A stretch of DNA of 64,000 nucleotides, taken from the NCBI GenBank assembly GCA_019913005.1, contig JAIOHL010000124.1:95107-159106 (forward strand), read 5' to 3'. This document shows positions 1,828-37,591 of the stretch, in pieces. Numbering within the stretch: the first letter of the stretch is position 1; the number at the start of each line of letters is the position of its first letter. A model generated the notes under the pieces. That model was not told the DNA's origin. It was given only the letters and a program-made list of their open reading frames with translations, and ran no database searches. This DNA is from Anaerolineae bacterium (lineage in GTDB: Bacteria > Chloroflexota > Anaerolineae > Aggregatilineales > J027). A program made the position numbers and the translations under genes.

Positions 1828-2940
1828 ATGGCTGAAATAGTCGTTGAAAAAGCAATTAAGCGGTTTGGCAAATTTGTGGCGGTGGATGAAGTGGATTTGA
1901 CGGTGAATGACCGCGAATTTGTGGTGCTGCTGGGGCCATCTGGCTGCGGAAAGACGACCCTACTGCGGGCCATTGCCGGGTTGGGGATGCTGGATGAGGG
2001 CCGCGTCATGATCGGCAACCGCGATGTCACTTATCTGCCTCCCAAAGACCGTAATATCTCAATGGTGTTTCAAAATTACGCCATCTTCCCGCATATGAAA
2101 GTCTACGACAACATCGCCTTTGGCCTGAAGATGCGGAAATCACCCAAAGAGGTAGTGGAAGAACGGGTGCAGAACGCGGCAAAACTGCTGCACATCGAAA
2201 ATATGCTGGATCGCTACCCCGGTGCGATGAGTGGCGGTCAGCGGCAGCGGGTGGCGGTGGCAAGGGCCATCGCGGTGGAATCCGAAGTGCTGCTGATGGA
2301 TGAACCCCTGAGCAATTTGGATGCCCTATTGCGCTTGGAGATGCGGGCCGAACTAAAATCCCTATTGGCGCGATTAAAAGCCACCACTATTTATGTCACC
2401 CACGACCAGATTGAGGCCCTCAGCATGGGGGATCGTATCGCGGTAATGAAACAGGGCCAGATTTTGCAGTTTGATAACCCAACCCGTGTGTATGATTTGC
2501 CCGCCAATCAATTTGTTGGCAGTTTTATCGGCAACCCACCTATGAATTTTTTGCGTGGACAGGTACAGCGTGATGATGGGGCAATCAAGGTTAATATTGG
2601 GGATTTCCATCTATCCCCACCCGCCGAAATGAATGAGCCACTGCGGGCTTATGAGGGCAAGTCCATTTTTGTGGGTATTCGTGCCGAAAATATGGAGACG
2701 TTGGCCTCCCCCGCTCCCGATGCGCTGGCAGTAATGGTGGAAGTCGTTGAGCCGTTGGGGTCACAAAACTTACTGACCATCCGCATTAGTGAGGATATTT
2801 TGAAGGTTTCGACCCATCCCGATTTCAAAGTCCATGCCCATGAAACCGTCTATATTCGCTTCCCGCCCGCCAAAATTCGCTGGATGGATCGAGATACCGG
2901 ACAGGCCATCGCACCGAGTTTGGATAAGGTACTCGCATAG
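1828..2940 (+). CDS. ABC sugar transporter ATP-binding protein (MsmK/UgpC/MalK-type)
   Basis: Walker A GPSGCGKTT, signature SGGQRQRVAVARAI, Walker B VLLMDEPLSNLDA, C-terminal TOBE-like region. Confidence 0.93.
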   Translation: MAEIVVEKAIKRFGKFVAVDEVDLTVNDREFVVLLGPSGCGKTTLLRAIAGLGMLDEGRVMIGNRDVTYLPPKDRNISMVFQNYAIFPHMKVYDNIAFGLKMRKSPKEVVEERVQNAAKLLHIENMLDRYPGAMSGGQRQRVAVARAIAVESEVLLMDEPLSNLDALLRLEMRAELKSLLARLKATTIYVTHDQIEALSMGDRIAVMKQGQILQFDNPTRVYDLPANQFVGSFIGNPPMNFLRGQVQRDDGAIKVNIGDFHLSPPAEMNEPLRAYEGKSIFVGIRAENMETLASPAPDALAVMVEVVEPLGSQNLLTIRISEDILKVSTHPDFKVHAHETVYIRFPPAKIRWMDRDTGQAIAPSLDKVLA

Positions 2941-2986
2941 ATAGTCCATTTTTTAATCACTTCAGCGCGACAGGATAATCAGCCAA

Positions 2987-4894
2987 ATGGCACGAGTTTT
3001 ACTAGATCAACCGCAATCTTTGACCGAACGGCCCGAAAATTTTAAACCGCTGGATTTTGGGGCAAATGGGATTAATGGCAGTCTCGATTGGAATGGACGA
3101 ATTATCGCGCTGAATTGGTATCACCCTCAACATGGCTATGTCACGCTGACCTCCGCCGATCCGTTCCATGAAGATCAACGGTATAACCCATCGGCGGTGC
3201 GGGCCTATCGCGCAGGATTGGCACAATTAGAGGGGTTTGGGCTTGTTTTTGATGACCCTATTCTCAAGCGAGAGGTCATTGTCGGGCCGAGTTTTTGGAC
3301 TACTCTCGTTTTCACATTCGAGGATAACTCTACGGCTAGAGTCTCGACGTTTGTACATGGAAATTTAGTCGTACAGGTGTGGCAGAGTGATAAAAAACAG
3401 CCTCGTTGGGCGGGTAAAATTTCTCTCCAAAGATGTGCCTATACTCAATTGACGGAGGGGGGACCAATCCCACAGTCCCTCGTTTCGACGCAAGCTTCAA
3501 TCAAAGACGGTTTGATAGTTATCAAAAACCCGGTAATTGGGTCAAAGGTTAATATTTGGGGTTTGCCCAAAGAGGAACGTTTTGAGAGAGAAGAATTTGG
3601 CCCCATAAATATTCTGTTTGAAAACAATGTTATGAAAGATTCAATGGATCTTCTCGACAGTGGGTCATATCTTATTAACGGGCCATATCCGGGATTTTTT
3701 CAAATGTTTGTTTACGACTTCAGTCCAGAGAACACCGATATCCGGATTGACAGTTATAAATCTCCAAGGGGTCTCACGGTTGGAGTTTTGCTAGAGCTTT
3801 TGGATAAGTGGCATGAACGCTGGCACGGCATAGAAGATGAGCTATTGTTACGGCGGGGGCTATTCTATGCTGTGCGGATGGCCGTCCCAGTAAATCATGG
3901 CATTTGTATCATTACCGATCATATGCTGCTGCCGCTCTCGTGGAATCGGGACGCCTATTATGTGGCACGGGCGCTACTTAGTTGGACAAAGGAAATGCAC
4001 GATATTGTTCGGCGGCATCTGATTTGGATGTTTGAAATCGCCGAGCGACTCGGCGGCGTATGGGGACGGTGTTATCTCGCCAATGGCAGGCAAAAAGACC
4101 CCGCTTTCCAACTCGATCAGCAATTATGGCCGCTCTTGGAATTTGCCGAATACGTTCAAGAAACAGGCGACCATGCCACATTTGAACGCCTCCAATCGCA
4201 GGTCAGCACCATTTTGGATACCTTGCTGGCCCGCAGAAAAAATCCCGATGGGTGGCTGTTCCCGACGGATGAAACCCCCGCCGATGACCCCATCGCGTTG
4301 CCCTATCATCTTTCGAGCCATATTTTGTTCTGGCGCACCCTGATGAAACTCGCCAATGTGTTTTCGGGTGACAGCGAGAAGCAAAAAACATTCCTCATGT
4401 GGGCCGACCATATCCGCGCTGCCATTCAACAATCTTTCGTCGCCGAGCATCCCCCATTTGGGCCAATTTATGCTTATGCCACCGACGGCGAAGGCCACTT
4501 TCATTTTTATCACGATGCCAACGATTTTCCACTGGTGCTTGCGCCGATCTGGAAATTTTGTGGCGCGGATGACCCAGTTTGGCGTGCAACCATCCAGTTC
4601 GCATGGTCGCCGGAAAACGAGGGGGGCTATTATGCAGGACGGCTTGGTTCAGTGCATACCCGTGCGGCATGGCCTTTAGGCGATGTGCAAGAACTGATTG
4701 TGGCACAGGTGCTTGGTGATGCTGACCGCGAAAAAAAGGCACGGGAAAATCTGATGTCGGCGGCTCAATGGGATGGGGCACTACCGGAGGCGGTTGACCC
4801 TATAACGAATGCGGTGGTATCACGGCATTGGTTCGCTTGGCCTAATGCAGCGCTGGCCTGCGTTGAGTTAGAGACATTTCAATTGCAGGGCTAG
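2987..4894 (+). CDS. (alpha/alpha)6-barrel glycoside hydrolase, possibly GH125-like
   Basis: Motifs SWNRDAYY, LDQQLWPLLEFAEYVQETGD and RHWFAWPNA recall GH125/amylo-glucosidase-type barrels; inside a mannoside-gene cluster. Confidence 0.55.
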   Translation: MARVLLDQPQSLTERPENFKPLDFGANGINGSLDWNGRIIALNWYHPQHGYVTLTSADPFHEDQRYNPSAVRAYRAGLAQLEGFGLVFDDPILKREVIVGPSFWTTLVFTFEDNSTARVSTFVHGNLVVQVWQSDKKQPRWAGKISLQRCAYTQLTEGGPIPQSLVSTQASIKDGLIVIKNPVIGSKVNIWGLPKEERFEREEFGPINILFENNVMKDSMDLLDSGSYLINGPYPGFFQMFVYDFSPENTDIRIDSYKSPRGLTVGVLLELLDKWHERWHGIEDELLLRRGLFYAVRMAVPVNHGICIITDHMLLPLSWNRDAYYVARALLSWTKEMHDIVRRHLIWMFEIAERLGGVWGRCYLANGRQKDPAFQLDQQLWPLLEFAEYVQETGDHATFERLQSQVSTILDTLLARRKNPDGWLFPTDETPADDPIALPYHLSSHILFWRTLMKLANVFSGDSEKQKTFLMWADHIRAAIQQSFVAEHPPFGPIYAYATDGEGHFHFYHDANDFPLVLAPIWKFCGADDPVWRATIQFAWSPENEGGYYAGRLGSVHTRAAWPLGDVQELIVAQVLGDADREKKARENLMSAAQWDGALPEAVDPITNAVVSRHWFAWPNAALACVELETFQLQG

Positions 4895-5047
4895 ATTGTG
4901 TTGGCTAGATATTTATCGGCCACATCGCCGCCCCCTAGCTGGCTATCACGCGCTAGGCCCGCCAGAACTAGATCAACGATATGACCGATAAACCCAGATT
5001 GGGGTGGAGTTAGTTTTTTGTCGAATGTTGTATCCCCCTTTTGGCCT

Positions 5048-6103
5048 CTAGACTTCCGAATTCGCCTTGATGAAAGCTATGAGTTCATCCACCTGTGTAA
5101 ATGCCAAGCCTGTGACCGTATCGGCAGCACCATAATAAATCGTAATGCGGCCTGTATCCGGGTCATGCAGGGCTGCACATGGAAACACCACGTTTGGTAC
5201 ATCTCCTACACATTCGTACAACATCTGTGGTGACATCAGATACGGCGCAGCGCGATACATGACCTTCCATGGCTCATCAAGATCAAGCAAGGCGGCCCCC
5301 ATGCTGTAGACGAAGCCATTACATGAGGTCAACACGCCATGATAAATCAGCAACCAGCCTTCACTGGTTTCAATTGGAATCGGCCCCGCCCCAATTTTGG
5401 TACTTTCCCAGCGCCAGCCTTTGGGTTTCATGACAAAACGATGCCGTCCCCAATGTATCATATCCGGGCTTTCGCTGTAGAAAATATCACCAAAGGGGGT
5501 ATGTCCGGTATCACTGGGACGGCTCAACATCGCATATTTACCATTAATTTTGCGAGGGAATAACACACCATTGCGGTTATAAGGCAAAAATGCGTTTTCT
5601 AAAAAATGAAATTCCTCAAAATCATAGGTATAACCAATGCCAATGGTTGGGCCATGATAACCATTGCACCATGTCACGTAATAACGATCTTCGAGCCACA
5701 CCACCCGGGGATCATAGCGATGCACAAACTCACCGAGTTCTTGATCCTCAAACTTCCATTCAATCGGCTCTGGTTGAATATGCCAATGGATACCATCGGA
5801 ACTGTGCCCCGTGTGCAAAGTCATAATTCTTCGAGTGTCGTCTACTCGAAAAACCCCTGCATAACCACCATTAAATGGCACCGCCGCGCTGTTAAAAATA
5901 CTGTTAGATGTTGGCGTAGCGTGCCGAGGAATAATTGGATTATTGCTATAGCGCCAAACCACCGCATTTGAATCCAAAGGGCGATCTTCCCAAGGGATAT
6001 TGGGCAGCGGATTGCCAAGCATCGACACTTTGGGTAAAGCAGCATCTGTAACCATCGGGGAGTCTCTCCAATACCTTTTCACCTGAACAATTTGACACAA
6101 CAT
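5048..6103 (-). CDS. GH130 family beta-mannoside phosphorylase/hydrolase
   Basis: Five-bladed propeller GH130 motifs: [83 protein letters not shown]; start may be at an internal Met. Confidence 0.88.
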
Positions 6104-6120
6104 TAAAAATAGATTAACAT
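6092..6120 (+). promoter_or_regulatory. sigma70-type promoter for the lacI-family gene
   Basis: TTGACA (6092-6097), 17-bp spacer, TAACAT (6115-6120). Confidence 0.5.
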
Positions 6121-6163
6121 ATAAAAAGTTTTAGAACAAGTTCGATTTGTTTTATGGACGCTT

Positions 6164-7198
6164 ATGACAAAAAATCCTACCATGCGAGAAATCGCTAAAA
6201 TAGCAGGGGTATCGCTGAGTAGTGTGTCGCTTGTGCTAAATAACAAGCCGAACGTTACCCCCGAAATGCGTGAACGGGTCCTCGATGCAGCGTCCACGCT
6301 CGGTTATCGCCCCAGAATAGCGGGCAATTCCCCCCTTGCCACATCCCTCTCTACAGTTGGCTTGTTGACTAAACGCCGTCAAGACGATCAGTTAATTGTG
6401 AACCCATTCTATTCACATATCATCGTCGGGGTTGAGCGTGAATGTCAGCGCAACAATATCAACCTCATGTATGCCAATGTGGAAGTGGATGAGCGAAACC
6501 ATACCTTAAGCTGGCCTGCCATGCTGCTTAACGATCTGGTAGATGGGGTCATCATCGTGGGGGCATTCCTCGAACAAGCGATTTCCGACATTAGTATGCG
6601 ACTGGGCAGAAGTATCGTTCTGGTAGATGCCTATACCTCGGTCAACACGATGTTCGATAGTGTGGTGATTGATAATCTAGGTGGGGCAATCAAGGCCGTT
6701 TCGCATCTTATTGAAAACAATCATCGTCATATTGGGTTGATCGGCAGTAATCCCGAATCCTATCCCAGCGTCCTCGAACGACGACAAGGTTATTTGGTGG
6801 CTTTGGCCCAAGTGGGCATTCATGATACTTATATCGAAGATGGATATTTGACTCGGCAAGGAGCCTTTGAAGCGACCATTCGGCTTCTTCACAAATCTCC
6901 AGAGATTACAGCCATTTTTGCATGTAATGATGAGACAGCACTCGGTGTGATCAATGCCATACGACACATCGGGTTGCGTGTACCGGAGGATGTCTCAATC
7001 GTTGGATTTGATGATATTGATCTGGCACAGGAAGTCATTCCCCCCTTAACCACCATCCATGTGGATAAAGTCTTGATGGGGACAATGGCCCTGCGCCTGC
7101 TGCGAGATCGCATGGATGATGCGGATAAAGCAGCTATCAAAACCGTCGTATCAACCCAACTCATTACCCGCAGTAGCGTTCGCTATCTTGAGGATTAG
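6164..7198 (+). CDS. LacI-family transcriptional regulator
   Basis: N-terminal HTH TMREIAKIAGVSLSSVSLVLNNKPNVTPEMRERVLDAASTLGYRP plus periplasmic-binding-protein-like domain. Confidence 0.95.
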   Translation: MTKNPTMREIAKIAGVSLSSVSLVLNNKPNVTPEMRERVLDAASTLGYRPRIAGNSPLATSLSTVGLLTKRRQDDQLIVNPFYSHIIVGVERECQRNNINLMYANVEVDERNHTLSWPAMLLNDLVDGVIIVGAFLEQAISDISMRLGRSIVLVDAYTSVNTMFDSVVIDNLGGAIKAVSHLIENNHRHIGLIGSNPESYPSVLERRQGYLVALAQVGIHDTYIEDGYLTRQGAFEATIRLLHKSPEITAIFACNDETALGVINAIRHIGLRVPEDVSIVGFDDIDLAQEVIPPLTTIHVDKVLMGTMALRLLRDRMDDADKAAIKTVVSTQLITRSSVRYLED

Positions 7199-7327
7199 CA
7201 CCACGCCCGGTGATTTTCCAAACGCATGAGAGAGCTAGAGTGAAAGGAAGGAGCGGACTGATCTGATAGCTGTATATCTATAGGTTAACTTCATTTCGTA
7301 AATTGTTCAATATGCAGGAGAACTATT

Positions 7328-8572
7328 ATGAAAATGCGTCTTTCGATTCTCGTAGTCGCAGCAGTATTACTATCCTTTGTTCCCGCCCCCAAGACGCCCG
7401 TTGTACATGGACAAGATGGCATTACGTTCTGGCTGACAGGTGATGACACAGGTGCGGCAATTCTTCAAGAAGTTGCCGATAAATGGACTGAGACCTCCGG
7501 CGTTCCAGTGACAGTAACTGCAGTTGGCTGGGGTGATGCGTATGCCCAATCCCTCGCCGCTGTTGCCGATGGCTCCGGCCCGGACATCATCTCAGGTGGT
7601 ATGAGTTGGGGTATTTCGTTGGGTTCGCTCGGAGGTATGGTTGATCTTGGTGAACGCTATCCCGAAGAAATCGCGCATATTGCTGAAATCAGCAACCCCG
7701 CCTTCTATAACGCGATTTTGACGACGGAAGGCAATGTCTATTACATCCCCTATAACCTCGACATCATGCTGATGTACTATCGCACGACCACTTTCGAAGA
7801 AGCGGGTCTCGCTGCTCCTGCGACTTGGGAAGATGTTGCTGCCGCCGCTGACGCAGGTCTAAAGGGTGGTTGGAGTTGGGGGAATACCTCATGGATTGGC
7901 TTCCAAGGCATTTTGAAAGAGGCTGGTGCGGATTGGTATACCGAAGACTGCTCGGCTGCCGCGATTGACAGCGATGAGGGCCTCGCCGCGTTGGAATTCT
8001 ACACCGCTCTGTATGAAGACTATGGTTTCCCGGCGGAACAGGTCAATATCGCGGACGGCTTCGAGGCTGGTGCACTCGACTATGCCTTCAGTGGTGAATG
8101 GGAAGCGACTGGTATCAACGTTGCTCACCCCGATTTGGAAGGCACTTGGTCAGCCGCCCCAGTACCCGCTGGCCCAACTGGTAGCTTCAACGCTTTCATC
8201 GGTGGCAAGGGTATGGGTATCTTCTCCTATTCTGAAAATGTGGATGCAGCGTTCGAATTCATGATGTATCTCAGCACTCGTGAAGCCCAAGAAATGTTGA
8301 CCGAACTGTCCATTTCCAATGCAAATTCGATTCACGTTCCGCCCCAAGTTGAAAACTACGACCTGATCAAGGGTGGCGATGATGTTCAGGCCGCTATAGC
8401 AACCCAATTGACTGACGCCTCTGGTCCGCCCATTTGCCCCGGTTGGGAGGAAAGCAATGCCGACGTTGACTTGGTGCTGCAATCGGTTCTGTTTGAAGAA
8501 AAAGATTTCGAAGATGCCCTAGCCGAGATTTCGGACATTCTCAACGCTGGCATCGAGGAATATGGTGGTTAG
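7328..8572 (+). CDS. ABC sugar transporter substrate-binding protein (extracellular solute-binding family 1)
   Basis: Signal peptide, ITFWLTGDDTGAAILQEVADKWTETSGVPV..., SBP fold; directly upstream of two permeases. Confidence 0.92.
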   Translation: MKMRLSILVVAAVLLSFVPAPKTPVVHGQDGITFWLTGDDTGAAILQEVADKWTETSGVPVTVTAVGWGDAYAQSLAAVADGSGPDIISGGMSWGISLGSLGGMVDLGERYPEEIAHIAEISNPAFYNAILTTEGNVYYIPYNLDIMLMYYRTTTFEEAGLAAPATWEDVAAAADAGLKGGWSWGNTSWIGFQGILKEAGADWYTEDCSAAAIDSDEGLAALEFYTALYEDYGFPAEQVNIADGFEAGALDYAFSGEWEATGINVAHPDLEGTWSAAPVPAGPTGSFNAFIGGKGMGIFSYSENVDAAFEFMMYLSTREAQEMLTELSISNANSIHVPPQVENYDLIKGGDDVQAAIATQLTDASGPPICPGWEESNADVDLVLQSVLFEEKDFEDALAEISDILNAGIEEYGG

Positions 8573-27496: not shown

Positions 27497-29155
27497 TTAC
27501 CTTTGATATAACTCATCCAAGACCCAAAACAACCATTGATCGGGGGTCGGCGGGTCGCCATAAATTTCGCCACGTATAATTTCGTCCGGGCAGGCAGGCG
27601 GATCTGCCCCTTCAAATTTGCGCTGTGTGATGACTTGCCCTGTTTCATAATTGACCAGTTGTACGGTGTCATCGGTGCGGTAACGGATATAGATATAGGA
27701 ATAGTTGCCGGGGCCGAGATAGTGGCAGTTTTCGATACGCAGCGTCGAGTAGGCATGGCAAATGATGACATCAATACCTGTTTCGAGGGTGGATTGCACT
27801 TCAGCGGGTAAATCATCCGGCGGGTAGGCGGTGTAAGGGAGATTGCCTGTGGGCCAGCTACCGCCTGCAACCGGATTTGCACAGATGGCCTCGTAATTAT
27901 TGATGCGAACCAAAGTTGACTGAGGTGGGACAGATGTAATTCCGGGTAATTGGATTGCAGGGCCAACACCCCAAATTATCACATCATTATCCTCTCCACC
28001 TGCTGAAGCTAACAATGTTCCATCAGGGCTAAAGGTTACAAAAATACTTGATCCGGTATGCCCATGTAAAACCGTCAGTTCCTCAAAGGTCTGTGTATCC
28101 CATAGACGAATCGTGCCATCTAAACTTGCTGAAGCCAACAATCTTCCATCCGGACTGAATGCAATACTATGCACGGTGTCGGTGTGCCCAAGTAAAACAG
28201 CATATTCCTCTCCAGTCACTGCATTCCACAAGCTAATGGTTTTATCGCCACTTGCTGTTGCAATCATTAAACCATCCGGATGAAAAGCTAAATCTCGTAT
28301 CAAATCTGTGTGGCCCTCCAAAACCGCAATCGTGGAACCCGTTTCTTCCCGGATTACTTTGTCAATAAGTTTGACTTCAACGCTAGAATCATCACTCACG
28401 AATGCAACAAGTGAACTATCAGGACTGAACGCAAGAGGCGGTTGGCCGGGAACAACAATCTGTTGATTTGATTGAGTATTGACCTTCCAAAAACGAATTT
28501 CATTGATAGAGTCATCTGCCGAGCGATTGGATGCAGCTAAAATGCTGCCGTCTGGGCTAAAAGATAGAATTTGGGACGCTCCTTCAAAACCACGCAAGAT
28601 AACAAGTTCTGTTACGTTTTGCACATCCCAGATTCGGACTGTACCATCTTCACTGCTAGACGCGAGCAAGTTACCATCAGGAGGCACAAATGTTAATTTT
28701 TGGATTTTGCCCTGATGCCCTTTGAGTTCAGGTAAAGCTGAATTAGTGAGGATTATGTTTCCGAAACCATATGCAAAGCTGACAGGCGACTCGTGCAACC
28801 CAAAAGCAATCGGATATGCACCTTCATCCAGCTTGAGAATTTCCGCAAAATAGCTTTCATCTCCTGTCGAAATATCCCAAAGTTTTGCTGTATTGTCCTT
28901 ACTATGGGCAGCCATCAACAAGGGATCATTTTCAGGGGCGAACACGATTTCAAATACGGGCGCAGCGTGATCTTCAAAAATCATCAGTGGGTTTATTTCG
29001 AGTGCATTTTCTGGCGTAATCCGCACCCGTTCACTGCTTTGGCGCGATGGGCTGCTGCTGGTCGGCGGCACAACGACCAACGACAGGATGAGTGTACAGA
29101 TGAGGGGGAGTAATTTGGATTTCATGGACTTATTCCTCCTCGGCTTTATAGCCAT
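27497..29155 (-). CDS. Exported WD40-repeat protein with distinct C-terminal domain
   Basis: Canonical blades such as LEGHTDLIRDLAFHPDGLMIATASGDKTISLWNAVTGEEYAVLLGHTDTVHSIAFSPDGRLLASASLDGTIRLWDTQTFEEL. Confidence 0.9.
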   Translation of the reverse strand: MAIKPRRNKSMKSKLLPLICTLILSLVVVPPTSSSPSRQSSERVRITPENALEINPLMIFEDHAAPVFEIVFAPENDPLLMAAHSKDNTAKLWDISTGDESYFAEILKLDEGAYPIAFGLHESPVSFAYGFGNIILTNSALPELKGHQGKIQKLTFVPPDGNLLASSSEDGTVRIWDVQNVTELVILRGFEGASQILSFSPDGSILAASNRSADDSINEIRFWKVNTQSNQQIVVPGQPPLAFSPDSSLVAFVSDDSSVEVKLIDKVIREETGSTIAVLEGHTDLIRDLAFHPDGLMIATASGDKTISLWNAVTGEEYAVLLGHTDTVHSIAFSPDGRLLASASLDGTIRLWDTQTFEELTVLHGHTGSSIFVTFSPDGTLLASAGGEDNDVIIWGVGPAIQLPGITSVPPQSTLVRINNYEAICANPVAGGSWPTGNLPYTAYPPDDLPAEVQSTLETGIDVIICHAYSTLRIENCHYLGPGNYSYIYIRYRTDDTVQLVNYETGQVITQRKFEGADPPACPDEIIRGEIYGDPPTPDQWLFWVLDELYQR

Positions 29156-32100
29156 ACATCGTCACGTTGGAACCCGAAGCCACCGCCAAAATCGCTGGGC
29201 AATCGGATGTCCAGCAGGTGGGATGCCAATCCGCGTCGGTAAAGCCGTTGATATTTTGCAAGGGGTAGAAGGTGGTGAAATCCAGAATCTGACTCTGGGC
29301 CAGCAAGACATTGCCATCAGATCGCATTAGGGTCCCGGCGGGCAGACCGCCTTGCTCAATATAGGTCAGTTCGCCGCTGTTCAACCCAAGAGTGCCATGC
29401 CCAGTCGTTGTCCAGAAATTGAGAACATTGTCGCCCCAGACGGTCAAGGCCATTTCGCGCCCAATGTCGGTATGGGTCGCCAAAATCACGCCTTCTGGCC
29501 CGGTCAACTCCCACACGCGCAGGCGTCCGCCATAAAACGCAGCGAGGCGCTGGCTGTCGTCTGACCATGACAAGTTAAATGGTTTGACATTCCAATACCA
29601 AATGTAATCATCCCAATCGAGGGAAAGTTGTTGTAGGGCCGCCCCGGTGGTCGCATCATGTACCCACACCAATGAAGTCGAGGTATAAACGCCCATATTT
29701 GGGTCAGGATAGGCACCAAAGGCAATACGTGTGCTATCTGGACTCCACCATGCCCCGGCCCGTTTCCACTGATTTTCAATGCGGGTAATGAGTTCGCCCG
29801 ATGTGCCATTGAGGATTTCGACGGCATCCTCAGTTAAGTCGAGTAACAATTTTTCGCCATCGGGACTCCAATTCATCTGGCGAATTTCTGGCCCAGTGGC
29901 GCGAAGAGTAACTCGTACATTCCCCGTGAGAGCATCTAACAGAATCACGCTACCATTGCTGCGAGCAACCGCCAGATAGTCCCCACTCGGATGCCATGCG
30001 AGATAGGTAATGGAGGGCATATGGCGGCGTTCGGCTTTCAGCACCGACGCACTGGCGAAATCAAGGATACGCACGACAGCGTCCGCGCCAATGACCACCA
30101 GTTGGTCTCTTTCGGGCGACCAGTCGAAATCACCGCCCCCGACACCACTGAATCGCCGTGTTTCGGCTAGGGTATAGGAATCGAGTACATACAAGTCACT
30201 GCCTGCACTGATAAGCAGGGTATCAATCTGTGTTCCCCATTGTAACGCACGGATAGGGGCACGGGTTTCATGCTGCCAGCGGGCGATTTCTTCCCCGTCC
30301 GTGTTCCACATTCGCACACTACCATCATCGCTGGTGGTGATAATCTGCCCGGTGATCGGATGCCAGAATAGGCTGGTGATGTCATCGGTATGCCCGATTA
30401 GACTGTGATAGAGAACGTGTGTATCCGCCGACCAGAGTTGACCACGCCCTCCCGAACCGTAATAGCTCATCGTCGCGGTAGCAATCCAGTTCCCGTCTGG
30501 AGATATTTCAATTTGATTATAGGGCGGATTGCCTCCACCCCAATAGGTGATAAATCGGCCACTCTCGCTGTTCCATTCACGCAACCAACCCGTTTTGGTA
30601 TTTGGCCCGCCGATGCCTTCTGCTGTGAAAAGACGTCCGCCATCGTCACTGACGGCCACATCGTACACGGTGTCCCGCCCAACATAAGGGTAGTTTTCGC
30701 CGCTGATGGGTGTATCAGCACACCCTGCATCATCAGGGTATTCATCTAACAACTTCAGATTCGCGTCGTAGATATAACCGCTGACCGAGATGGCACATTT
30801 TTCCCATGAAACCCAACGCGCCGCTGATCGCCCAAAAGTTTCGGTCTCGGCAACATACGTCCAAAGGGGTTCAAGTGCGCCATAATCAATCGCCGCCACA
30901 GGCAAATCCAAAGATGCTTCGGCAGGATATTCGGGCAGGTTTAGCACCACTTCCGTTCCATCGGGCACACCCCATAACACCACCCGCCCATCCGCATCGG
31001 ACGAAACAAACATATAACGACAGACGGCGATGTTTGTATAATCGCAAGCCGGGTTCCAATCCATGCTCAAAATATCATTGTGATGCCCGCGCAGGATGGT
31101 CAAGCGTTTCTGTGTTGGGATTTCATAGATCAGGATGGCATCATTGTCGCCGCCAATCGCTATCCGTTGGTAGTCATCGCTCCACAAAATCAGCGGATAG
31201 GTGTTGCCAGTGTACGCCTCTAGCAGCAACTCACCCGAAACCGAATCGTAGGCATAGACCGTACCCGACCCATCCACAACCGTAAAACGGGAATTGTCGG
31301 AGGTATAGCGCATAGAATTGCGATCAGCAGGCACGGTTTCATAGAGCAGGCGACCCGTGACCGGATCAAACGCCTTGAAGCGCTGGTCAGTGTCATAGGC
31401 ATAAATGTGATCCCCATGTGGGCCAAACCAGACTTCCCGCCATTCATAGCGATTGACTTCGAGGCGGGTCATCTCGCGGGTGCGGAGGTCAATGATTTCA
31501 TCATCTCCAATGGACACGAACCGGGTTGTCCGCAAAAGATTAAAGTAGGTGTTGCCATTGGCGCGTTCATTCGCATTTTCAAGGTCATAAAGCCATGCCG
31601 TTTGTTCACCAAGATTGGTGCGTTCCTCTAAGCGCTGTTTTGAGGGAATATCCCAAATGATATACCGCTCTTCTGGCGGCTCTTCGTCTTCATATTCGGG
31701 TGTACCCGGATACTCAATATCCTGCTCATAGGTAATGACGAGTCCCCGATCAGCATAAACCTGCTCAACATGCCACTCATAAGGCGGGGCATTATAATCC
31801 CATGTAGCAGGATTTGGCTCCAAAAACCTAAGATCAACTGGCGGTGAGGCAGGAGGGCGTGGGGCAACACTCACATAAGTGGGCAGTACCCCCGCAACAT
31901 CCCATAAACCACCTGCTGCGACCAACTGCGTGCCATCATCCGTCCAGAAAGTCTCATTGGTGCTGCTGATATAGGCGCGTAGGCTGTTGACAATTTCTCC
32001 ATTGGCGGCTTCAAATACGGTTAGGGTACGATCACGCGAGGTCGCAAAATAGGCTCCATCTGGCGACCACGAAACATAACCAACCTGCTGAAGTGGCCGT

Positions 32101-33404
32101 TCCAGATTGGAAAAATTTTGCATCGGCTGGTGTGATTCCAAATCCCAAACCCCCATGCCAACCTCTACCCAACGTTCTTGTGTGGGACCGGTAGATTGAA
32201 TCGGATTGGTCGGGGATAGCGAGGCAGTGCCAACAGAAGCGCTACCTGTTTCAATTAAATGACGGGCGCGTTCCAGATCATTTGCTTGGGCAGCGTGATA
32301 AACCTCTTCGATAAGGCGCAGAGCCGAGCTAACATTGTCCCCTTCAGTTGCCAATAACACATCCACTAGGTTATTGAGCAGTTCACCCGACTCATCCACC
32401 TCAAAGGCCCATAACACAATCTCATCAATCATAATTTGAAGGTCTTCGGCATCCTCCGCCGACATGTCTTCTCCTGAATCTGATTGGGAGGGCGTTGGGG
32501 AGGTTTCTTGGACAACCAAAGTGCCGTCTGATTCTGGCTCCCAGCGCCTCAAATAAGCGGCAATATATTGACCGTTCGGGCTGATGGCAACAAAATTATC
32601 CGCGCCATGACGACTGCCGGGGATGCCTGCCGAGAACGTATCATAAGTGGCGACAATTTCCCCTGTGATGGCATCCATTCGCACCAGATCATACAGAATT
32701 GGCTCATGCTCATAATCAAAATCGGGTGGTAGCGGATCTTTGAGGCCGATGATGGCGAACCATTTGCCATCAGCACTCCAATCAAAATCGCGGATTGTAT
32801 CGAAGGGGTGGATTCGCACAATGTCGCCTGTGTCGGTACGAATCATCACAATCGCACCGGGACCAGCGACAGCGACGACGGCGCTATCAGGACTCCATTG
32901 CACCGCGCCCCCATTGCTGATTAATTCATCTATCTCAAGAGTGACCTCGGCTCGCTGTACATCCCAGAACCGCAGGGTGTTGCCTGCCCAGACCGCCAGA
33001 TAACGACTGTCTGGACTCCACGAGGGAGAGCCAAATTGACCGAGCGCCAACACGGGTGCCCAGTCACGGGTTTGGCGGATAATCAGTCCACCATCCTGTT
33101 CGACAGCGACGTATCGCATATCAGGGCTAAAGAGTACCGGCCCAAAAGCGGGTTCGTCAAAACGCCGTTCGCCTTCGAGTTCAAGGTTTTCGTTCCAAAA
33201 CTGGAAGCCAGTTTCGCTCGCTGCCGCCAGTTGACCACTCAGCGGTGACCAATAGACCGAAAGTAGCCCGCCGTAACCAAAACTAGCACGCGGCACGATC
33301 TGCGACCACGCATCATTACTCTGGGCCGTTGTGTCCTCTGGAAAGATAAAAATGGAGATTGAAAAAAGGGCCACCAACACGAACAAACTAATGATTTTTC
33401 GCAT
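29130..33404 (-). CDS. Large exported multi-propeller WD40 protein (1424 aa)
   Basis: Signal peptide MRKIISLFVLVALFSISIFIFP and many blades (LIGHTDDITSLFWHPITGQIITTSDDGSVRMWNTDGEEIARWQ). Confidence 0.88.
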   Translation of the reverse strand: MRKIISLFVLVALFSISIFIFPEDTTAQSNDAWSQIVPRASFGYGGLLSVYWSPLSGQLAAASETGFQFWNENLELEGERRFDEPAFGPVLFSPDMRYVAVEQDGGLIIRQTRDWAPVLALGQFGSPSWSPDSRYLAVWAGNTLRFWDVQRAEVTLEIDELISNGGAVQWSPDSAVVAVAGPGAIVMIRTDTGDIVRIHPFDTIRDFDWSADGKWFAIIGLKDPLPPDFDYEHEPILYDLVRMDAITGEIVATYDTFSAGIPGSRHGADNFVAISPNGQYIAAYLRRWEPESDGTLVVQETSPTPSQSDSGEDMSAEDAEDLQIMIDEIVLWAFEVDESGELLNNLVDVLLATEGDNVSSALRLIEEVYHAAQANDLERARHLIETGSASVGTASLSPTNPIQSTGPTQERWVEVGMGVWDLESHQPMQNFSNLERPLQQVGYVSWSPDGAYFATSRDRTLTVFEAANGEIVNSLRAYISSTNETFWTDDGTQLVAAGGLWDVAGVLPTYVSVAPRPPASPPVDLRFLEPNPATWDYNAPPYEWHVEQVYADRGLVITYEQDIEYPGTPEYEDEEPPEERYIIWDIPSKQRLEERTNLGEQTAWLYDLENANERANGNTYFNLLRTTRFVSIGDDEIIDLRTREMTRLEVNRYEWREVWFGPHGDHIYAYDTDQRFKAFDPVTGRLLYETVPADRNSMRYTSDNSRFTVVDGSGTVYAYDSVSGELLLEAYTGNTYPLILWSDDYQRIAIGGDNDAILIYEIPTQKRLTILRGHHNDILSMDWNPACDYTNIAVCRYMFVSSDADGRVVLWGVPDGTEVVLNLPEYPAEASLDLPVAAIDYGALEPLWTYVAETETFGRSAARWVSWEKCAISVSGYIYDANLKLLDEYPDDAGCADTPISGENYPYVGRDTVYDVAVSDDGGRLFTAEGIGGPNTKTGWLREWNSESGRFITYWGGGNPPYNQIEISPDGNWIATATMSYYGSGGRGQLWSADTHVLYHSLIGHTDDITSLFWHPITGQIITTSDDGSVRMWNTDGEEIARWQHETRAPIRALQWGTQIDTLLISAGSDLYVLDSYTLAETRRFSGVGGGDFDWSPERDQLVVIGADAVVRILDFASASVLKAERRHMPSITYLAWHPSGDYLAVARSNGSVILLDALTGNVRVTLRATGPEIRQMNWSPDGEKLLLDLTEDAVEILNGTSGELITRIENQWKRAGAWWSPDSTRIAFGAYPDPNMGVYTSTSLVWVHDATTGAALQQLSLDWDDYIWYWNVKPFNLSWSDDSQRLAAFYGGRLRVWELTGPEGVILATHTDIGREMALTVWGDNVLNFWTTTGHGTLGLNSGELTYIEQGGLPAGTLMRSDGNVLLAQSQILDFTTFYPLQNINGFTDADWHPTCWTSDCPAILAVASGSNVTMYGYKAEEE

Positions 33405-33641
33405 CTGAGGTCTTCCTAAATATCATTGCTGCTATTTCAATTTTAGGATGGCTTAGATACGGAATCAATCAACGCGAATTAGAGGGTTGCCCTACTATGC
33501 CTACGCCTAGTTCATAAGCAATTGACAGAATCCTGACGCAACCTGACGAGGTAAAAATCCCAATTTCTGCCAACTGTGAGGAAATGCGAGAGGGTATCCC
33601 CAAACACTTTCAGAGATACCCCTATCATCAGTGTATTGTTT

Positions 33642-33764
33642 CTACATACCGTGCATCTCTTTGAAAGTTTCGAACAACCAACTCCCGCCAAAATGAAGCG
33701 TCAAAAGGAGGAGCACAATCGCAACGAGGATGAATCCGATACGAACGGCTTTTGTGTGAGTCAT
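33642..33764 (-). CDS. 40-aa single-TM microprotein, third gene of the ABC exporter operon
   Basis: Manual translation MTHTKAVRIGFILVAIVLLLLTLHFGGSWLFETFKEMHGM; SD CTGGAGAA just upstream of ATG; begins 15 bp after the FtsX-type permease stop; below the ORF-track size cut-off. Confidence 0.7.
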   Translation of the reverse strand: MTHTKAVRIGFILVAIVLLLLTLHFGGSWLFETFKEMHGM

Positions 33765-33779
33765 GATGTATTCTCCAGA

Positions 33780-36155
33780 TTATTCGTAGGCTAAAACGTC
33801 ACGGACAGTTAAACGAGTGGCGCTCCGAGCAGGTGGCAGACTCGCCGCAATTGAAAAAAGCACAACTACCCCCAACCAAAGTACAAAACCAATCGGGCTG
33901 ATGGCAAAATCCAGCGAGGTGTTCAGCATGGTTTCGCCCAACGACTGGGACAGGATATAGCTAATGGGGGTGGCGATCACCGCCGCCAATATCCAACTCA
34001 GAATCCCGGTGAGCATGGCTTCGATGAGGATGATTTTGAGTAGGGCGGTGTTGGATGCACCGATGGCTCGCATGACGCCAATTTCTCGGGTGCGCTCTAA
34101 AACATTAATACTCATGGTGGTCATCAAGCCTAATCCACCGACAATCGTGCTCATCACAGTTGCCAATAACAGAAAACTCGTGATGAGCATGGCATGGTTT
34201 TCCATAATCTGGCGACGCTCAAAGCTGTTTTGATTGGTCGTAATCGAGACGTTTTGAGTCGCAAAGGCATCTTCAAGTTGCTGCTTAAGAGTCTGTAGGC
34301 TGACCTCATCATGTTGTTCGGTGACAAGATATAGACTTTGGGCATAGCCGGTTTCACCTGTCACACGCGCGAAATCGGTATAGGCGACATAGGCGAGAGG
34401 GGGGGCAATCGGCTCCCGTACAAAGCCAATTACCTGCCATGTGCTAGGGTGGTTGTTGAGATTGAGGGTGATTTTATCCCCTATGTTAATATCAGGGTAT
34501 TCAACCAGCAGATTGTGATTTAGCACAATCCCGTTTTCTTGCGACAGCCACTGTCCCTCAATCAGCATGGGATCAATCAGCTTAGTTGCCACTGGAGGGG
34601 CAAGCAGAACAAAGGCATTGCCTGCGATTCCATCTTCGCTAATGATGGCGGCTGAACCACGCCCCCAACTCTCGGCAGACACGACCCCCGGTACACTGGT
34701 GGCTGTAGTTTCAATTGCCTCGATTGGATAGGGTTTGTCGAAGGCGAGATTTAGATCATAGTGAAGACCTTCATATCGCAAATCAATTGTCCTAAATAGC
34801 GAAGCCCGTACATTGAGGGCAGCCATGAAAACCGCACCCCCTATCGCCAATGTGCTGAAAGTGAGTACAAGACGTGCGCGGCGGCGAAATGTATTGCGGA
34901 TAGCTAGCATCAAAGGTCGGGCTAAACCCTGCAACCGTACTAACAGGCGGTCAAACCAACTTTCTCCAAATTGGCTTTGAGCAATCCCATAGTCGCTGAG
35001 GGCTTCACGAACTGTAAGGCGTGTACCTCTGTAAATCGGATAGGCTGAGGCCAATAGTGGAATACCCAAGCCCACTCCCAGTTGCAGCAGAATCACCAGA
35101 TGTGGGATGCGATAACTCTGGATATTGAAATTCAGCATGAAGGCCATGAAATCAGCAATCCCGCGCCCCACCAATATCCCCAAAGGCAAGGCGATAATGG
35201 CTGCTGTACTGCTTAGGAGCAATACCATGCCAAAATATAAGGTAGTGACCTGCTGGTGGCGGGCACCAATGGCCTTCATTACAGCGATTTGGCGAACTTG
35301 TTGGGCAAGGAGAGCACCGATAGTATTGCCAATCAGCACCGCACTCAGCAAAATTGCCATCGCACCCAGCGCCGCCAACAATAGCAGGGCGGAGTCCATT
35401 TGAGATTGTAGTGGGTGTTCGTTGGGCATTGGGATTTGCACACGATAGACCGGATGACCCTGAGTTTCCATCCAATCGGTGGTCTGCTGGCTGACTTCGC
35501 GGATATGCTGCTCATCGGAAGTATCGCCCGTCACCACAATGCGAATTTCATTTAGCCGAGGCGTGATACCAAGTTCGGTGACCGTTTCGATGGTGACATA
35601 GCCATAGATCATCTCCTCTTGCCACGCGGGGGCAAGGTTGATGTCATGGAGTGTTCCCGCGATTCGGAGTGACGCTTGGGGCTGACCGGGAATTTGGATG
35701 AGAAGGCTGTCACCTATTTCCGCATCCGCCACCGACAAGGCCATGCGTTCCAGCACTATTTCGCCATTGGGAGGTGGATAGTCGCCATCTTCAGGTGCAA
35801 GTTGGTTGATACGGATGTGTTCAAAATCCTGCCGAACAAAGAGTTCTAGAGTTTTCCATTCCCCTTCTATCCAAACACGACCTGAGATGCTTTCCATTGC
35901 CTCGGCTTGGGCAATATTAGGAAGATTTTCAAGGCCCTGCATCAGTTCCGGGCTAGTCGCATCGGTGTATAAAATGGCCGATGCTGGATTCGTATCAAGA
36001 TAGTTATCATGCAGTTCGCGGGAGAGAATGCTGTAGACACTGGAAACCCAAGAGATGCTGAAAATTCCCACCACGATAGCGCCTATGGTTAACCCGGTAC
36101 GCCCCCTATTTTGTTGAATGTCGCGCAGCACCTTACGCCAGCGTGGGTTGAGCAT
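33780..36155 (-). CDS. FtsX/MacB-type ABC transporter permease
   Basis: Two FtsX-like modules with [16 protein letters not shown] and [18 protein letters not shown] motifs. Confidence 0.93.
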
Positions 36156-36888
36156 AGCCTCCCCTTTCGGGCATCACGTCACTGAGGATTGCGCCGTCAG
36201 CCAACGTAATAGTTCGATTGGTATACTGCGATATATTGGGTTCGTGGGTAACCATCAAAATCGTTTTACCCTCTTGTATCAGGGAGGCAAACAATTCAAG
36301 GATGATTTCGGAGGTGTGGCTATCCAAATTTCCAGTGGGTTCATCGGCGACAATAATGGATGGATCATTGGCTAAGGCACGGGCAATAGCTGCCCGCTGC
36401 TGTTGCCCACCAGAGAGCGCATTTGGTAATTTATAGGCTTGTGACTCAATCCCGACTAGGGTTAAGAGTTCCATCGCACGGGCTTTGCGCTGTTTGCCGG
36501 TCAGATGACCAGCAAAATCCATTGGGAGCATCACATTTTCAATGACCGTCAGCGTCGGCAGCAATTGAAAGAATTGAAAAACGATCCCTATAGTGCGTCC
36601 CCGCCAAATAGCCAATTGATTTTCATTGAGGGTATGCAGGGCAGTGTTATTGACCCATACCTCGCCTGATGTAACACGATCAATTCCTGTAATGACATTG
36701 AGGAGGGTTGATTTCCCACTCCCCGACTTGCCTACCACTGCCACAAATTCACTAGGCTGAATGTTCAGATCAATAGTTTTAAGGGCGTGAAAACTTCCCG
36801 CGCTGGTTTCATAGGTTTTGGAGACTTGCTTGAGCCGCACTACGTCGGTTGCTGGCGCACGGCTGCCATTATTACGTTGATTCCCCAT
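36133..36888 (-). CDS. MacB/LolD-type ABC transporter ATP-binding protein
   Basis: Walker [13 protein letters not shown], signature [15 protein letters not shown], Walker [13 protein letters not shown]. Confidence 0.95.
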
Positions 36889-36916: not shown

Positions 36917-36945
36917 TGAACACATTGTTCGATTTGTAGTATAAT
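36917..36945 (+). promoter_or_regulatory. tetR promoter with overlapping dyad operator
   Basis: TGAACA-17 bp-TATAAT; dyad GAACA-cat-TGTTC at 36918-36930 overlaps the -35 hexamer. Confidence 0.5.
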
Positions 36946-37018
36946 GGGATTGAGGAATGGGATTCAATCAACAAAAAGCGCAAAATATCCGCTATTGAAC
37001 AGAAAGCGCAAAGTGTCT

Positions 37019-37591
37019 ATGAAAAACACAAAAAATGACCGCCGATCTCAGCGGACTCGTCAGTTGCTTACGACGGCCCTGCTCGAACTGATGTTAGAAA
37101 AGAACTATGAGTCCATTACGGTGCAGGACATCATTGACCGTGCAAACGTGGGCCGATCCACGTTTTATGCCCATTATTTGGATAAAGAAGATTTGCTGAC
37201 CAGCCAGTTTGAGGAAGTGGGGCGACATCTGGGGGAAGCAGCTTATCAAGACGAATATACCCTGTTTCCCACCCTAAAAGTGTTCCAACATACCCAAGAA
37301 AACCATCATCTTTATAAGGCACTGGTCTGGGGCAAAGGGATTGAAGTGATTTTTAAGGCATTTGAGGCACACTTAAATGCCCACCTCGAGGCCGAGCTTA
37401 AACAGAAACTGGGCGAACGTTCATCTCCAATTCCCCTGCCGATTGTGACCCATTACATTACGGGCGCTTTCCTAACTTTGCTGAAATGGTGGTTGGATAA
37501 CAACATGCCTGTCACGCCGGAGAAAATGGACGCTTATTTTCGCCAACTGGTTACGCCAAGCATTCAAAGTACATTGAATATCGAGTTTTAG
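37019..37591 (+). CDS. TetR-family transcriptional regulator
   Basis: N-terminal HTH RRSQRTRQLLTTALLELMLEKNYESITVQDIIDRANVGRSTFYAHYLDKEDLL; ATG at 37019 preferred over 36944, which overlaps the promoter. Confidence 0.92.
   Translation: MKNTKNDRRSQRTRQLLTTALLELMLEKNYESITVQDIIDRANVGRSTFYAHYLDKEDLLTSQFEEVGRHLGEAAYQDEYTLFPTLKVFQHTQENHHLYKALVWGKGIEVIFKAFEAHLNAHLEAELKQKLGERSSPIPLPIVTHYITGAFLTLLKWWLDNNMPVTPEKMDAYFRQLVTPSIQSTLNIEF

Follow-up and report, generated by a model that had tools for sequence, protein, structure and literature searches.

The window, by which the whole 64,000-nucleotide stretch under analysis is meant, belongs to a 7.6-Mb, 365-contig assembly of an Anaerolineae bacterium; among public records, its close relatives are MAGs of Chloroflexi. 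Its minus strand carries an ABC ATPase of the FtsE/LolD/MacB type (36133..36888) that overlaps the start of a 791-aa permease (33780..36155), followed by a 40-aa microprotein with a single predicted transmembrane (TM) segment and a C-terminal MHGM tail (33642..33764). The permease matches PF02687 (FtsX) twice and PF12704 (MacB_PCD) and, with its separate FtsE/LolD-type ATPase, falls into the type VII systems, in keeping with the FtsX/MacB type proposed in a preliminary description of the locus.

The microprotein ORF runs from 33764 to 33642 on the minus strand, starts with ATG, ends with TAG and encodes MTHTKAVRIGFILVAIVLLLLTLHFGGSWLFETFKEMHGM; translation of the same interval on the plus strand gives a different peptide. 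The permease stop codon TAA occupies 33780-33782, and the spacer of exactly 15 nt, TCTGGAGAATACATC, contains the Shine-Dalgarno (SD) sequence CTGGAGAA (core GGAG; 33771..33778, minus strand). An SD-like match precedes the start of all 18 small ORFs (smORFs) examined. TM segments were predicted from hydropathy, and a Kyte-Doolittle peak of 2.5 over 19 residues points to one TM segment in the microprotein. The preliminary description, which gave no strand, was thus right about the 40-aa ORF, its single helix, its good SD and its start 15 bp behind the permease stop. Scans of Pfam, NCBIfam and PHROG returned no family above its cut-off or right in kind for the microprotein, and PDB sequences gave no match to it.

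Directly 3' of the microprotein stop lies a strong hairpin with a terminator-like stem and no clear T-run (33584..33629, minus strand; -21 kcal/mol, z -3.9) that went uncalled in a strict terminator scan. Hairpins of differing sequence stand at the same place in L212, L079, L197, L205 and L207, and across the window, G003, G004 and three distant relatives the z values of the post-stop hairpin range from -3.1 to -6.9. Two large WD40 beta-propeller proteins of 1424 and 552 aa, encoded in overlapping frames (27497-33404, minus strand), start 238 nt past the microprotein, and the same pair is present in G003 (L212 9870-15735).

Orthologs of the microprotein occupy the same position in three of four congeners (G003, G004 and G002, 93%, 90% and 67% identical) and in a second genus (G005, 52%); each has an SD and comes immediately after the gene of the orthologous permease. 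Both this permease (best match 29%) and the microprotein are missing from the fourth congener, G001. A lack of conservation of the reading frame or of the SD behind orthologous permeases had been named beforehand as what would refute the preliminary description; frame, SD and position, as well as start, length and C-terminus, are kept in all close orthologs, and the permease-microprotein spacer varies among close relatives (15, 13, 14 and 9 nt). The most conserved part is the C-terminal tail and not the TM helix: TFK[ED]MHGM is invariant but for one E/D change. Between G000 and G002 the substitutions at the three codon positions number 8/5/21 with a dN/dS of about 0.1, and on this pattern the microprotein is under strong purifying selection; the comparison with G005 gives higher values of lower certainty, third positions there being near saturation. 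Past the stop codon DNA identity falls and gaps appear, and the alignment is poor except between G003 and G004. Judged from these sequence comparisons, the microprotein is a real, conserved protein-coding gene missed by standard annotation, and its translation may be inferred.

DNA 3' of homologous permeases from the class was inspected for small TM ORFs. Such an ORF occupies the downstream slot of seven diverged permeases that had been located solely by similarity of the permease; the C-termini are ...VIKRMHGG (G173), ...VIKLHGG (G329), ...FLRGLHGG (G386 and G059), ...LMQTLHGTG (G429), ...FLRAHGMG (G414) and ...MLRVHHLR (G239). A profile built from these seven microproteins retrieved G437 (...LRVHGMG; E 1.8e-10) and G471 (...IQKLHGG; E 3.3e-8) and, as weak matches with E 0.01-0.05, G406 (...LAAHGM), G455 (...LAAHGL) and G434 (...IHVPPPH); an extended profile gave a weak match outside the class, G800 (...QGMHGMR). 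All of these lie directly 3' of a permease, and where the E-values of relatives are weak their assignment rests on context. The diverged relatives are spread over several families and reach beyond the class. A phylum-wide profile search yielded many weak matches inside long proteins, and only short ORFs behind a permease were accepted. Two small-ORF matches next to no permease were discarded: that of G416 and that of G222, which is probably secE because it stands just before nusG-like and ribosomal-protein-like genes. Outside the class, the nearest permease retrieved, that of G626, is followed 17 nt downstream by a small TM ORF, MHRALIHAAVVVLLAAFAVAAHTADWPGILRAVNPHA, which ends in ...RAVNPHA.

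Among 119 nonredundant permeases, 18 have a TM ORF of 28-70 aa in the slot, and 16 of these 18 end in HG plus 0-2 residues, an ending found in about 1% of shuffled sequences; six of the 18 loci were retrieved by profile, so that for these the tail is no independent evidence, and the remaining 12 came in via the permease or as close orthologs of the window gene. In the permease-driven survey, which covered more than 100 homologs, each of the small TM ORFs found to occupy the slot ends in a C-terminal His motif. All relatives have one TM helix and nearly all the His-Gly tail, with G239 (VHHLR), G434 (IHVPPPH) and G626 (NPHA) as exceptions, and a histidine is almost always present no more than about 5 residues from the C-terminus. 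The window microprotein shares the features of this HG-tail family, namely a single TM helix after a basic N-terminus, a His-Gly pair no more than about 4 residues from the C-terminus and a place directly behind a type VII permease. These counts refer to genome searches centred on Chloroflexota, beyond which a single contig scan found only 3 close loci, and to assemblies throughout, a good number of which are fragmented (a contig end truncates the L198 permease). A plasmid search gave only weak permease matches, none covering most of the query.

The gene follows the phylogeny of the permease. On a tree of 118 permeases, the microprotein trait requires 2 changes against a shuffled-label mean of 16.1, and the gene is present in 13/13 members of clade 1, which includes the window, and 4/4 of clade 2. 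A second permease tree under a mixture model agrees and places G626 in clade 1; with L240 (G800) added from the first tree, clade 1 has the gene in 14/14. About 100 related permeases lack the microprotein, and a third of those have an HlyD/MacA-type adaptor gene in the slot: on the 118-permease tree HlyD fills it at 33 permeases without the microprotein and at 0/17 with the smORF. At many homologous permeases, microprotein and adjacent adaptor are both absent, and no small TM gene of this kind was found at 21 other permeases checked with G626 (L273, where only 21 nt follow, was not judged). One permease of each kind is held by G800 (L240, L249). Divergence of microORF and permease is correlated (r 0.51, 13 nonredundant pairs, Mantel p 2e-4), which could come from the shared ancestry of linked genes alone. 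The order permease, microprotein, ATPase, HlyD at L203 (G239; 2779-7527) is the only case seen with both microprotein and HlyD. The L240 locus (464-2822), which comes from outside the class, has a permease fragment of 494 aa next to a TetR gene, together with the microprotein and the operator motif described below; no matching ATPase is present on that strand, and either a truncated gene or an assembly fault is at hand.

A TetR-family regulator (TetR_N and TetR_C_8; 36944..37591, plus strand) is encoded divergently from the ATPase. Its listed start overlaps a -10-like box at 36940-36945, which makes the internal ATG near 37019, that of MKNTKNDRRSQR, the probable true start. Between the two genes a perfect palindrome, GAACACATTGTTC (36918..36930), overlaps both divergent promoter-like sites. 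The window contains a single copy of the motif GAACANNNTGTTC (0.02 expected). The motif is a good candidate for the TetR operator because among 275 fetched loci it is confined to the smORF-bearing loci of clade 1; imperfect versions are seen at L207 and L209. A divergent TetR gene is present at ten smORF loci, and at many others the upstream DNA is too short to judge. The TetR control assumed in the preliminary description is supported by this conserved candidate operator unique to clade 1. Systems of clade 2 (L196 4245-6157, L204 6509-8421, L203 7482-9466) are each accompanied by a protein of about 425 aa and a response-regulator-like protein, not TetR, which suggests a different control circuit.

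For structure prediction, the permease was read through its TAA into the in-frame microprotein, a modelling device that makes no claim of read-through. AlphaFold2 predicts the permease with a mean pLDDT of 81.7 and a pTM of 0.79, with 8 TM helices and two extracytoplasmic domains. The microprotein appears as one helix of low confidence (pLDDT about 45-60), and the model therefore does not support its docking on the permease. The best solved-structure match of the permease is Escherichia coli YbbAP (9ge6; E 4.7e-24), followed by LolE, MacB and the Streptococcus pneumoniae structure 5xu1. The window genome has one HlyD_D23 match, on another contig, so an adaptor acting in trans is possible.

We consider it probable (about 0.64) that the microprotein serves as a dedicated accessory subunit in an ABC exporter of type VII (MacB/LolCDE/YbbAP-like) that is under TetR control and lacks an adjacent HlyD/MacA adaptor gene. 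The gene is the last of the ATPase-permease-microprotein unit and is inherited with one permease lineage, and the dedicated role is favoured because every member found of this permease branch carries the gene behind the permease. A role as subunit is suggested by analogy, since partner proteins define and classify type VII ABC systems (PMC12646458) and the small protein VraH binds the FtsX-family permease VraE (PMC5985334). Following the positive-inside rule, the basic N-terminus would be cytoplasmic and the tail outside. The helix might lie against the TM bundle of the permease, with the short amphipathic tail ending in His-Gly near the extracytoplasmic domains. From there the microprotein would act on the permease by stabilising it or by adjusting coupling or the choice of substrate, the partner role held by the adaptor in related operons. 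Of the small regulatory subunit first proposed, the association with a permease lineage stands, and binding to the permease and an effect on transport are what we infer.

A more far-reaching version is tentative and, in our estimate, rather doubtful: an undescribed microprotein family would be the defining partner of one type VII exporter lineage and replace HlyD/MacA as a minimal 'adaptor'. Its conserved His-Gly tail, lying outside the membrane, would engage the outer domains of the permease and so couple or gate the cycle of mechanotransmission.

A gene right behind the permease and retained with it is also what would be seen if the microprotein were a stability or assembly factor, its helix serving membrane insertion or protection from FtsH-type proteolysis and leaving transport itself unaffected; MgtU and MgtS offer precedents (PMC10710835). 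This is unlikely, since conservation of the C-terminal extracytoplasmic tail above that of the TM helix suggests a function outside the membrane. FtsX/MacB-type exporters handle peptides, and leaderless bacteriocins are typically short basic-hydrophobic peptides. The peptide could accordingly be cargo, a small hydrophobic signal or bacteriocin-like product exported by its own pump; strong purifying selection, co-inheritance with the permease across large distances, the lack of a leader or processing site and the last place in the unit make this quite improbable. The near-invariant C-terminal histidine, together with the HrtBA heme exporters among the fold relatives of the permease, brings to mind a ligand or metal/heme site in the His-Gly tail of a substrate-presenting or sensing subunit, an idea given little credence here, as a single histidine is present and a second conserved ligand is absent. 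Finally, the window ORF lies in frame with the permease 15 nt beyond its stop, which could hint at a split-off tail, but the frame relation is lost in relatives with other spacers, dN/dS is low and each relative possesses a start and an SD of its own, so that a leftover of the permease 3' end is extremely improbable and a chance ORF is ruled out by the conservation data.

If the microprotein is indeed a dedicated exporter subunit, there is an entire lineage of permeases whose partner is small enough to be commonly overlooked by gene finders, and exporters of poorly cultured Chloroflexota gain a named, testable third component. Searches guided by the permease recover microprotein families that profile searches miss. 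The system could also serve as a minimal model of a single helix tuning a mechanotransmission ABC transporter.

Several known systems invite comparison. Homologous permeases (30-48% identity) and ATPases form the MacB-MacA/HlyD exporters of Chloroflexota, many of which have an HlyD adaptor gene directly downstream in the microprotein's stead; the hairpin, lipoyl and beta-barrel domains of HlyD/MacA adaptors are absent from the microprotein, which has 40 aa and no Pfam match. YbbAP-TesA of E. coli, the closest solved permease fold, likewise has two FtsX halves in one polypeptide and two extracytoplasmic domains, but YbbP has 10 TM helices and a soluble partner, TesA (PMC12646458), whereas the window permease has 8 predicted TM helices and a putative 40-aa membrane partner. 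AcrZ of AcrB (PMC10710835, PMC7267776) and KdpF of KdpFABC, to which the preliminary description likened the microprotein, are also single-TM proteins of fewer than 50 aa associated with transporters. They associate with RND pumps or P-type ATPases and not with a type VII permease as here, and no AcrZ or KdpF family model matched the microprotein in the library scans; the comparison holds as a functional analogy, and VraH, whose partner is an FtsX-family permease, is nearer. In the VraDEH system of Staphylococcus aureus, which has no adaptor, VraH is a small membrane protein that interacts with VraE and modulates VraE function (PMC5985334, PMC5786555). It crosses the membrane with two TM helices, so that its termini are both cytoplasmic, and it ends in the basic sequence YYKRREEKGK (PMC5985334, PMC5786555), in contrast to the one TM segment and MHGM ending of the microprotein; no curated family shared by the two was found, and it is by its description that VraH is set apart. 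By analogy of function, VraH is the nearest precedent for the microprotein.
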